From Methanocella arvoryzae MRE50 (GTDB lineage Archaea; Halobacteriota; Methanocellia; Methanocellales; Methanocellaceae), in the NCBI RefSeq assembly GCF_000063445.1, contig NC_009464.1:2108001-2172000 (forward strand): DNA of 64,000 nt, in the 5' to 3' direction. This document shows, in pieces, positions 22,905 to 29,465 of the stretch. The notes beneath the pieces were generated by a model. That model made no database searches. It was not told the DNA's origin and saw nothing but the letters and a program-made list of their open reading frames with translations. The first letter of the stretch is position 1. Every line of letters starts with the position of its first letter. The translations under genes were made by a program, and so were the position numbers.

Positions 22905-25733
22905 CTAGGATGCGGTCCTGATCTCCGCCGGCTTTTTTTCCTCTTTCTTTTCCTTCTTTGGGGCCGTTTCCCCGGTGCCCACGACCTGCCTGGCGAACTC
23001 TGCGGTCAGCTTTTCGTACCGCTGGTGCATGTCCCTGGATAGCGTGGGCCTGACCTTTTGCAGCGCGGCCTCGAAGTGCTTCATCTTGATCTTGATGTTG
23101 CCAGCTTCCTTTTTCGCCTGTTCGGGAGTCATGCCGTGGGTGATGTGCTCCCGGATGGCCAGCATCGCGGCCTCCCGGCATACGGCTTCAATGTCCGCGC
23201 CCACATAGTCCTTGCTGTCCCGGGCGATCTTCTCCAGGTCCACGTCCCTGTCGAGGGGCTTGCCTCTGGTGTGGATCCTGTAGATCTGCAGGCGGGACTC
23301 CTCTTCCGGGGGCGGGATGTAGAGCAGCCTGTCCAGCCTGCCCGGGCGCAGCAGCGCAGTGTCGACCATGTCCGGCCGGTTGGTGGCGGCTATTACTACT
23401 ACATTGTGTAGCTCCTCCAGGCCGTCCAGCTCGGTCAGCATCTGGCTCACGACTCTCTCGGTCACGTGGGAGTCGAACCCGGCGCCTCTGGTCGGGGCAA
23501 TGGCGTCGATCTCGTCGAAGAAGATGATCGTCGGGGCGCTCTGTCTCGCTTTGCGGAACGTCTCCCTGATGGCCTTCTCCGACTCGCCCACGTACTTGTT
23601 GAGGATCTCCGGGCCCTTGATGCTGATGAAGTTAGCCTCGGACTCGTTGGCGACGGCCTTCGCCAGCAACGTCTTGCCGGTGCCCGGCGGGCCGAACATC
23701 ATGATACCTTTGGGGGGCGTGGTGTTGGTGGCGCTGAAAACTTCCTTGAACTTCAGCGGCCACTCGACCGACTCTCGCAGCTCCTGCTTGACCATGTCCA
23801 GGCCTCCTACGTCGCTCCAGTGGACGTCAGGTACCTCTACGAAGACCTCCCTCATCGCCGAAGGCTCGATGTTCTTCAGCGCCTCGGTGAAGTCGTCGCC
23901 GGTGATCTGCAGCTCATCCAGGACCTCCTGCGGGATCTCCTTCTCGATGTCGATGCTGGGCATAATCATCCGGAGGGCGTGCATGGCCGCCTCTTTACAG
24001 AGGGCGGCGATGTCAGCGCCTACGAAGCCGTAGGTAGTGTCTGCCAGCCGCTCCAGGTTGACGAAGTTGGTCTTGTTCTTCTCGTTTTCCTTCTGCTTGA
24101 TCTTGTCCAGTTCCTCGAACAGCTTCAGGTGCAGCTCCTTGATACTCATCTTGTCGACGGAATCGCTGCCCGCGCCCAGGCCTTTGAGGACGCTTTTGAT
24201 GAAGCTCGGGTTGTTGAGCAGGTCGCTTTCTCTGACCTCCTCCATCCTGATCTTCTGCTTTGTCGCCCTCTCGATCAGGGGTATATTTTTCTGGAGGTAG
24301 TCGACGTCATCCTTCGCGAACTGCTGCTCGTCCTTTTTGGTCATCACCTGGAACAGCGCGTCCAGGAGCTTCCGCTTCAGCTCGGTGACCGTCGCGGCCT
24401 CCCCGCTTTCCTTATAGGCGGAGTCGCTGGCGTGCTCCAGCACGTTAGTGAGCTTCTTCTGAACCGCCGGTATGTCATCGCCGCGCAGGGTCGATGCCTC
24501 TGTCAGCTCCTCTATGAACTGCTGCTTTCCGAGGAGTTCGTTCAGCCTGGACCTTTCAATGATGTCCGACAGGTCCTTCACGTCCAGCACGGTCGAGAGG
24601 TACCTGGTTATCACGCTGTTCAGGGTCTTTAGTGGCATGCCTCTCGTGTGCACGTGGAGGATTTCGAGCCTGCCTACCTTATCGGGGACGCCGATCTCGA
24701 TCTCTCTGTCGAACCGGCCGCCTCTTCTCAGCGCGGGGTCCACAGCGTTCGGCCTGTTGGTCGCGGCTACCACGACCACCTGGCCCCGGCTCTGCAGCCC
24801 GTCCATCAGGGACAGGAGCTGGGCGACGACTCTGCGCTCCACTTCGCCCGTGACTTCCTCTCGCTTGGGCGCGATCGAGTCGATCTCGTCGATGAAGATG
24901 ATGGAAGGCGCGTTGTCTTCGGCTTCCTTGAAGATGTCCCTCAGCTGTTTCTCCGATTCGCCGTAGTATTTGGACATGATCTCGGGGCCGCTGATGTTGA
25001 TGAAGTGAGCGTCGGTCTCGCTGGCGACCGCCTTGGCGATCATCGTCTTGCCGGTGCCCGGCGGGCCGAAGAGCAGCACTCCCTTGGGCGGCTCGATGCC
25101 CAGCTTCTGGAACAGCTCGGGGTGGCGCAGCGGCAGCTCGATCATTTCCCTGACGAGCCCGATCTCCCTGCGCAGGCCGCCGATGTCCTCGTAGGAGATG
25201 TGGGGCGTCTTCTCAGCCTTTTCCGCCTCGACCGGCTTCTCGCTGATGGTCACCTCGGTGCTCATGTCCGCGATGACCGTGCCAGCCGGACGTGTGTTGG
25301 TGACCACGAAAGTCATGGGGCTGCCGAGCATCTCCACCCGGATGGCCTGACCCTTGGAGATCGGCCTGCCTTCGAGAAGCTTCAGCAGGTAGTATTCCCC
25401 GCCCGTGATCCTGACCGGCTGGGTGGGCGCGAGGGTGATGCGCTCTGCCTTCTTAGCCTGTATCTTCCTTACTTTGACCCGGTCGTCGATGCCGACTCTG
25501 GCGTTGGACCTGATGTTGCCGTCGATGAGTATGACTCCTTTGCCTTCCTCGCTGGGGTAGCCAGGCCAGACTACAGCAGTCGCGATGGCGCCTTTGCCTT
25601 CGATCTCGATGATGTCTCCGCTGACCATGCCCAGCTGTCTCATGGTTTCCATGTCGATCCGGGCGATGCCCCGGCCGACGTCTCTGTGGTAGGCTTCCTG
25701 CACTCTTAGCGTGACTTCGTTTTTGTCAGCCAT
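22905..25733 (-). CDS. Cdc48-type AAA ATPase with a large insertion in D1
   Basis: The 942-residue protein has an N-domain (about 1-170). D1 has Walker A GPPGTGKT at 223-230 and Walker B IIFIDE at about 278-283. D2 has Walker A at 681-688 and Walker B IIFFDE at about 736-741. Between HTRGMPL (362-368) and [13 protein letters not shown] (566-578) there are about 195 residues where ordinary Cdc48 has about 20. The extra 185 residues are helical, charged and rich in Lys, Glu and Leu, and sit in the small helical lid of D1. The C-terminus is a Lys/Glu tail without an HbYX motif. It is the middle gene of a heat-shock operon. GGAGAGGTG lies just before the ATG. Confidence 0.93.
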
Positions 25734-26467: not shown

Positions 26468-26500
26468 TTAACATTGAGTTAGTATTACTTGTATATATAC
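26468..26500 (-). promoter_or_regulatory. Heat-shock operon promoter: TATA box plus HSR1-type operator
   Basis: On the minus strand a TATA box GTATATATAC (26491-26500) is followed by CTAAC-TCAAT-GTTAA (26468-26482). The HSR1 site recalled from A. fulgidus is CTAAC-N5-GTTAG, so nine of ten arm bases match. The operator covers the expected transcription start and ends seven bases before the ATG. Repressor bound there would block RNA polymerase. Confidence 0.7.
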
Positions 26501-26656: not shown

Positions 26657-28132
26657 TCAGAACTTGGTCGTCAGCGGGTAGTTGGGCGCTTCATCGGTGA
26701 TCATGATGTCGTGGGGGTGGCTCTCGCTCATGCCCGACGGGGTGACCCTTACGAACCTGGCCTTTTCCCTCATTTCCTTGATCGCCGTGCAGCCGCAGTA
26801 GCCCATGGAAGACCTCAGGCCGCCGACCAGCTGGTAGATGGTGTCCGCGACGGTGCCCCTGTAGGGGATGGCGCCTTCGACGCCCTCGGGGACGAACTTG
26901 GTCTTGCCGATCTCTCTCTCGCTCTGGAAGTACCTGTCCGAGCACTCTCCGCCAGCCATGGCGCCCATCGAGCCCATGCCGCGGTACTGCTTGTACCTCC
27001 TGCCCTTGATGGTGATCAGGCGTCCCGGGGCTTCCTGGGTGCCCGCCATGAGGTTGCCCAGCATGACGCACTCGGCGCCTGCCGCTATGGCCTTGGCGAT
27101 GTCGCCGGAGTACCGGACGCCGCCGTCAGCGATGATGGGCACGTCATACTCCTTCGCTACGTCGACCGCGCTGGCGATCGCCGTCAGTTGCGGAACTCCC
27201 ACGCCGGCCACGATTCTCGTGGTGCAGATAGATCCGGGGCCCACGCCTACCTTGATGCCGTCCGCAAAGCTGGCCAGCTCCTGAGCAGCCTCGCCTGTGG
27301 CGATATTGCCGACAACGACGTCTGCGGATACCATCTTCTTGATGCGCTTCGCCGACTCGACGACCCGCATGTTGTGCGCGTGAGCGCAGTCGACACAAAT
27401 TGCATCCACGCCGGCCTTGTCCAGCGCGATCGCCCGCTCGATGTCGAACGGGCCTACTGCGGCAGCAACCCTGAGCTGGTCTGCGCCGTTTCTGTTCGCG
27501 TTGGGGTACTGCCTGCGCTCGAGGATGTTCTGCATGAGGATCATGCCCACGAGGCTGCCCTTCTCGTCGATCACCGGCAGGCGCTCGACCTTGTGCTCGT
27601 ACATGATGTCGATCGCTTCGTCAATCGTGACGGTCTCGGCAGCAGTCACGACATTCCTGGTCATGACTTCGTTGATCTTCTTGCCCGGCTCACTCTTGAC
27701 GATCGGCCTGATGTCGCGGCGGCTGATAATGCCCACGAGCTTGCCGTCCTCGATGATGGGGAAGCCGGTGACGTTCTCGTCGCTCATCGCCCGCCAGACC
27801 GACTCGATCGTCTGGCCGGGGCTGGCGGTAACCACGTCACGAATGATGATCTCTTCGCCCCGCTTGACCTTCCGGACCTCCTCGACCTGCCTGTCCCTGG
27901 ACATGTTGCGGTGCAGCACGCCGATGCCGCCTTCCCGGGCCATGGCGATGGCCATCTCGGCCTCAGTGACCGTATCCATTGCAGCGCTGACAAGAGGAAC
28001 GTTAAGGCTGATATTCTTCGAAAACCTGGATTTGACTTCAGTGTGATCGGGCTCCACGAACGACCGGCTGGGTACGAGCAGCACGTCGTCAAAAGTGATC
28101 CCGAGGGGTACATCTAATTTTTTTGAGAACAC
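26657..28132 (-). CDS. guaB: Inosine-5'-monophosphate dehydrogenase
   Basis: The 491-residue protein oxidises IMP to XMP with NAD+, the committed step of GMP synthesis. The barrel begins [20 protein letters not shown]. Two CBS domains occupy about 96-205 ([37 protein letters not shown]). The catalytic loop GPGSICTTR holds Cys303. The flap region [10 protein letters not shown] and the C-terminal [11 protein letters not shown] motif are present. Length and motifs are those of a full enzyme. It is apparently monocistronic, with a palindrome over its transcription start. Confidence 0.96.
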
Positions 28133-29148: not shown

Positions 29149-29465
29149 GTGAACGTTGTCGAACGCTGCGCTGTGCCAATCCTCACAGATGCCACGGATT
29201 CCGATTGATTCCACAGATTCCTCTGCAGAATCCACGGATTACTACACGATAGCACAGAAGGAATACGCTAATACAATTCGATCACCACTAGCAATCATAA
29301 GAGAAGTCGATCAGAACATTTTATGTATCTCTGCAACTCGGCAGAATCATCAGATTCTGCCTTATCCGTGCAATCTGTGAGGTTTTGCACAGCGCAGCGT
29401 TCGTATTGCTGTCTCACGTCGCATAATCATCTGTTATGCAGAGCGCAGCGTTCGTCACCGTTCAC
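29149..29465. repeat. Palindromic repeat element, copy 3, intact (about 317 bp)
   Basis: The left end GTGAACGTTGTCGAACGCTG (29149) is mirrored at the right end (about 29440-29465) as CAGCGTTCGTCACCGTTCAC. Inside the ends, CTGTGCCAATCCTCACAGAT mirrors ATCTGTGAGGTTTTGCACAG imperfectly. The core GATCACCACTAGCAATCATA and AGAGAAGTCGATCAGAACAT (about 29280-29318) is shared with the other copies, and CAGAATCATCAGATTCTG (29342-29359) forms an inner hairpin. The right end touches the stop codon of the thioredoxin-CcdA gene. The remaining gap 28987-29148 holds GCCCC/GGGGC and GAGTC/GACTC hairpins but no convincing gene. Confidence 0.8.

Follow-up and report, generated by a model that had tools for sequence, protein, structure and literature searches.

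The accessible text of a review (PMC9133787) lists no more than two archaeal heat-shock regulators as identified, Phr and HSR1. For Phr, the same text reports a site over the start of transcription and describes a block to the recruitment of RNA polymerase, which is also suggested there for HSR1. The operator of HSR1 in Archaeoglobus fulgidus is given as CTAAC-N5-GTTAG (Rohlin et al. 2005, as cited in the accessible parts of PMC9133787 and PMC5852551); the published motif was found in the former. A literature search lying outside most subscription papers, the primary HSR1 paper included, returned no report of operator conservation or of tandem sites.

The window, which is the whole 64-kb stretch of DNA that was analyzed, carries a close match to this motif in front of three genes in the order regulator, cdc48, hsp20. 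All three lie on the minus strand and may form a single transcript. The features are as follows.

26499-26492, minus strand: TATA box TATATATA, its start 17 bp upstream of the operator
26482-26468, minus strand: candidate HSR1-type operator CTAAC-TCAAT-GTTAA (CTAACTCAATGTTAA), over the predicted transcription start
26460, minus strand: ATG of the HTH gene; the promoter reads TATATATACAAGTAATA-CTAAC-TCAAT-GTTAA-TGATAGT-ATG
26460-25804, minus strand: HSR1/Phr-type regulator (HTH), 218 aa, with an ArsR-type winged helix, a long helix and a winged-helix-like C-terminus
25733-22905, minus strand: Cdc48-type AAA ATPase of 942 aa, separated from the regulator gene by 70 bp (TIGR01243, 1090 bits, cut-off 803)
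22889-22392, minus strand: small heat-shock protein Hsp20 of 165 aa, separated from cdc48 by 15 bp (NF041800, 183 bits, cut-off 140)

The candidate operator, its promoter and the regulator

The operator begins 22 bp upstream of the HTH start codon and has one mismatch to CTAAC-N5-GTTAG, in its 3' half (GTTAA). With the usual archaeal TATA-to-start spacing, the TATA box places the predicted transcription start at about 26468-26473, under the operator. Both claims of the first-pass annotation for 26468-26500, that an HSR1-type site one base off the published one lies here and that it overlaps the predicted start, were borne out, and the range noted consists of operator and TATA box. CTAACN5GTTAR occurred once in the window (0.08 expected; at least one occurrence in 6/100 shuffles), as did CTAACN5GTTAG with one mismatch (0.87 expected; one occurrence in 51/100 shuffles). 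The chance of a match this good in a 100-bp promoter was about 0.2% (42/20,000 first-order Markov sequences built from the 100 bp upstream of the HTH gene). The word alone is therefore unremarkable, and what is remarkable is its position. TGGTAA, an element of the Phr operator, was not present on the minus strand from 26500 to 26440.

An ArsR-type winged helix (Pfam HTH_5) was matched at residues 13-58 of the regulator, and residues 166-210 matched TrmB/MarR-type Pfam models. A structure model (mean pLDDT 82.8, pTM 0.54, 30 sequences), of fair confidence, suggests that the C-terminus is a second winged-helix-like domain, joined to the first by a long helix. The nearest solved structures by profile, single-sequence and fold comparison were those of Phr (2P4W) and then SurR; the TM-scores of the model were only about 0.5 and 0.4, respectively, perhaps because the domains differ in placement. 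Matches to the regulator at E <= 1e-12 were found in 139/196 sampled genomes of the phylum, and the best named match was a Methanocella sp. record (79% identity). Genome G108, which we take to be that of A. fulgidus DSM 4304, held a single match at this threshold, and the protein so found had the window regulator as its best match in the window's genome (E 5.1e-28, the runner-up at 4.9e-5). As reciprocal best matches, the two count as orthologues, the protein in G108 being presumably HSR1. The same three genes had been said to form an operon in the HSR1 species, and in G108 they do stand in the order HTH-cdc48-hsp20, with an exact site, CTAACATAAAGTTAG, that starts 60 bp upstream of the ATG.

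Two further features of the locus were recorded. The window Cdc48 carries an insertion of 187 aa after the D1 core (24066-24626, minus strand), which had a counterpart in none of the 97 loci measured (the linker at this point was 1 aa in 86/97 and 57-62 aa in 5/97) and held no Pfam domain among the best 25 matches listed. Upstream on the same strand lies guaB (IMP dehydrogenase; 26657-28132, minus strand), an arrangement seen in 3/4 loci of the window's family, 5/6 of the other Methanocellales and 6/7 presumed Methanomicrobiales.

Conservation of the site among related loci

For comparison, 140 loci were fetched (80 + 60), which with the window made 141, and 26 near-duplicate upstream regions were dropped. 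The remaining 115 comprised 61 loci with HTH, cdc48 and hsp20, 18 with HTH and cdc48, and 36 in which the regulator was unlinked. All 5-base inverted repeats with gaps of 0-12 were searched in the 79 cdc48-linked loci with no prior motif. CTAAC with a gap of 5 ranked first, occurring in 46/79 upstream regions; the best control palindrome, from codons 51-100 of the same genes, occurred in 8/79, and CTAAC with a gap of 5 was present in 3/36 unlinked loci. Within 150 bp, the best match was exact in 43/61 and had one mismatch in 6/61 of the three-gene loci, with corresponding values of 3/18 and 7/18 for HTH and cdc48 and of 3/36 and 0/36 for unlinked regulators. A TATA-like word, matching at 6 or more of 8 positions, was found in 59 of the 65 loci having a site with at most one mismatch, starting 17 bp (35 loci) or 16 bp (11 loci) upstream; the window distance of 17 bp is thus the commonest among its relatives.

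Exact and one-mismatch sites were then tallied by lineage in 300 bp of upstream sequence plus 20 bp of the gene. Exact sites were present in 18/18 Archaeoglobaceae (an inferred label) and 4/4 loci of family f2, neither with any one-mismatch site. Other Methanocellales had 5/6 exact and 1/6 with one mismatch, Methanoperedens, where the gene order is HTH-hsp20-cdc48, 16/19 and 3/19, Methanotrichaceae 1/14 and 7/14, Methanosarcina-like loci 3/10 and 1/10, and presumed Methanomicrobiales families 2/7 and none. The small families gave 1/2 (f8), 0/2 (f10), 1/1 (f25) and 1/1 (f29). The window's own family had 0/4 exact and 2/4 with one mismatch; across its four genomes the operon site shows 1, 1, 2 (G003) and 3 (G001) mismatches, so that the site decays close to home. 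In Halobacteria (0/27 exact, 1/27 with one mismatch) the sites are, as judged from the sequences, degenerate or absent. A relaxed pattern, YTAMC-N4-6-GTKA near the ATG, was found in 6/27 Halobacteria against 0.06 in mononucleotide shuffles, the pattern being post hoc and the loci related. In Halobacteria and presumed Methanomicrobiales, neither cdc48 nor hsp20 was found downstream in the sequence covered, which spanned 5-7 kb in most loci and less than 2 kb in L092 and L098. The first-pass annotation had described site, regulator and gene order as conserved across distant euryarchaea; the three are conserved together, in a comparison that covers one phylum.

The 150-bp scan had suggested that Methanosarcina-type loci are without the operator. 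This is true of some loci, and a check of up to 400 bp (n = 13) found sites in others: exact in L086, L093, L113, L116 and L123, one mismatch in L126 and L175 (same genome), and only 2-3 mismatches in L075 (150 bp only), L089, L094, L121, L151 and L152. The five exact sites lie 179-226 bp before the ATG, which implies a long leader; the leaders of L086, L093 and L116 contain further CTAAC words. L075 is an archaeal-looking regulator-cdc48-hsp20 locus in a record labelled Deltaproteobacteria and is probably a misbinned contig.

Tandem half-sites and further candidate targets

One base past the palindrome (+15 to +18), TAAC was present in 46/65 loci, compared with 7/2,405 at other offsets; these counts are inflated by the relatedness of the loci, but the half-site is shared by several families. 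Secondary sites, allowing up to 3 mismatches of 10, lay at +14 in 35/65 and at +28 in 19/65 loci (background 22/5,826), so that adjoining palindromes overlap by one base with a 14-bp period. Three palindromes stand in tandem in 17/19 Methanoperedens loci, two in 6/6 other Methanocellales and in each of the 8 Methanotrichaceae loci whose site has at most one mismatch, and four in the sole f29 locus. Among Archaeoglobaceae, the TAAC half was found in 14/17 loci and a second site (at most 3 mismatches) was counted in 4/18. The half-site was absent from the two loci of the window's family, the window among them, and from f2, f8, f25, f4 and f20. We regard it as a tentative and rather doubtful proposal that the full HSR1 operator in many lineages is a helical array of palindromes with a 14-bp period, pared down to one half-relaxed site in the window's genus. 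Each palindrome would be rotated by a third of a turn relative to the one before, three of them spanning 42 bp or four turns, and HSR1 dimers would line up co-operatively around the DNA, with the number of sites setting the sharpness and the heat load of opening. The phased half-sites thus pose a concrete question of co-operative binding.

A search for further sites, proposed in the first-pass annotation, was run on the window's genome. The one-mismatch word was not enriched (18 places; 62 for a reversed control pattern), and one further site was recovered.

G000:C1:2454962-2454976: second site CTAACCATTTCTTAG, one mismatch, window's genome, before a stand-alone hsp20

Its promoter reads TATATATACATGCAATA-CTAAC-CATTT-CTTAG, with the site 37 bp before hsp20 and the TATA spacing of the operon. 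The other one-mismatch places lie in coding sequence or repeats or are without an in-register TATA box, the exception being L004, which precedes a small membrane-protein/HTH_3 module. A 29-base pattern made from both promoters, which match it by construction, found no third place in the window's genome at up to 3 mismatches; the missing third place is therefore the informative part. A looser TATA-coupled pattern returned 7 rows (5 distinct places: the operon, the second hsp20 and three others) and was set aside as not specific, since the reversed control gave 5 rows. As the second site is set in a promoter like that of the operon, the regulon is predicted to comprise the operon and a single stand-alone hsp20. 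Two repeat families were also seen in the window's genome (at about 29380-29460 in the window, close to the centre of L005 and L241, and in L013, L017 and L240), one with CACAGCGCAGCGTTCGT and the other with CTAACAACTTGTTAT in near-identical surroundings.

A PF00011 search of 12 genomes yielded 32 hsp20 matches, of which 30 were fetched. An exact or one-mismatch site was present in 6/30, all outside the operon and 37-52 bp before the assigned ATG, one each in G000, G002 and G003 (window's family) and in G068, G108 and G145 (f5), that is, in 6 of the 12 genomes examined. No site was found before operon-internal hsp20 genes (0/12) or before 12 other stand-alone genes, including L211 (window's genome), L218 (G001) and L220, whose gene start was not reached. 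The exact palindrome occurred at 23 places in 17 genomes, against 26 for the reversed control, and thus without excess. Fifteen of the 23 stand before hsr1, hsp20 or cdc48 (10 of these at the regulator), a share inflated by the choice of the 17 genomes in the knowledge that many have the regulator site. Regulator sites aside, 4 of the remaining 13 precede hsp20 and 1 a cdc48. One exact palindrome in G068 (L202:1201-1215) lies 47 bp before another ArsR-type HTH_5 gene (about 273 aa).

Interpretation and comparison with known systems

The sequence and position of the operator DNA, the gene order, their conservation and the second site were established here. Because an orthologous regulator, the gene order and the site are conserved together, and a second site is present, the site is read with a probability of roughly 90%, and in agreement with the first-pass annotation, as an HSR1-type operator, through which the heat-shock repressor would control its own operon. 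Weighing against this reading are the imperfect site, the 2-3 mismatches in G003 and G001, the lack of genome-wide enrichment, the poor specificity of the looser TATA-coupled pattern and the occurrence of the core before unrelated genes. We infer that the regulator binds the operator as a dimer, represses from it and leaves it on heating, the last by analogy with its relatives Phr and HSR1. At normal temperature, an HTH dimer would occupy CTAAC-N5-GTTAA, about -13 to +2 of the promoter, and keep RNA polymerase off the TBP/TFB-TATA complex; such a block to polymerase recruitment fits an operator placed downstream of the TATA box and across the predicted start. Heat, or the resulting unfolded protein, would release the repressor so that HTH, Cdc48 and Hsp20 are made together, and the rising repressor level would close the operon again.

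The regulator could be an HSR1 orthologue on its own operator and yet sense another stress, such as redox, salt or general unfolded protein. The redox and sulfur regulator SurR provides the second nearest solved structure and is placed in arCOG01684, the arCOG of the regulator, in the accessible part of PMC9426492. We consider this unlikely: the regulator is linked to both cdc48 and hsp20 in 61/115 dereplicated loci and to cdc48 in 18 more, and heat raises HSR1 and its Methanonatronarchaeum relative, according to the portion of PMC5852551 that was available. SurR uses CxxC, whereas the window regulator has three cysteines and no CxxC pair.

Still less probable is binding by some other protein, for example a regulator of small membrane-protein modules with TCTAAC-N5-GTTAGA. 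The same core palindrome does stand before small membrane-protein genes in G000, G108 (two) and G006; the base before the site, however, is A in 83% of the 65 hsr1 loci and T in those modules, a contrast that is incomplete in that the hsr1 site of G108 itself has C there. Look-alikes of the form TTCTAAC-N5-GTTAGAA lie around 1201 in L196, L197 and L204, and L004:1501-1515 is TCTAAC-N5-GTTAGA. The genes downstream are small and membrane-type (DUF2178 by Pfam in L196, similar by eye in L197, no family over the cut-off in L004 and L204), and such palindromes could be mistaken for HSR1 sites. A chance palindrome in an AT-rich promoter we regard as hardly credible. The number of one-mismatch matches expected in the window would allow it, but it is countered by the low chance within the promoter, by the second site upstream of an hsp20 gene and by the same placement in other genera.

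Should the operator be shared to the extent that the sequences indicate, one repressor, one site and a core regulon (the repressor itself, Cdc48, Hsp20 and a stand-alone hsp20) would be predictable from sequence in methanogens, Methanoperedens and Archaeoglobus relatives. The site is present in some Methanosarcina records, which would open the circuit to study in a genetically tractable genus.

Among described systems, SurR (PF0095, PDB 2QLZ/2QUF) provides the second nearest solved structure to the window regulator and shares its arCOG, as far as the source cited above could be consulted, but is a sulfur/redox regulator; the window protein lacks its CxxC and scores 59 bits against the SurR family model, below the cut-off of 250. 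Phr of Pyrococcus furiosus (PDB 2P4W), the Pyrococcus heat-shock repressor, is alike in family and fold by search. It differs in its operator, reported as TTTA / TGGTAA / AAAA, of which TGGTAA is absent from the operon promoter of the window, and the window regulator reaches only 93 bits against NCBIfam NF053602 (Phr_regulator, cut-off 320). HSR1 is alike in its orthologous regulator, in the same three genes and order, in the same palindrome likewise placed behind the TATA box and in an additional site upstream of a stand-alone hsp20, present both in G108 and in the window's genome. Unlike A. fulgidus, with GTTAG, the window has GTTAA as its 3' half; its leader is short, the site starting 22 bp from the ATG rather than the 60 bp of G108, and the TAAC half-site past the palindrome in G108 is not shared. 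The HSR1 motif was already known; what is new is the breadth of operator conservation, the second target (a stand-alone hsp20) and the phased half-sites. On the loci compared, what had been described as the switch of a single species seems to be widely shared.
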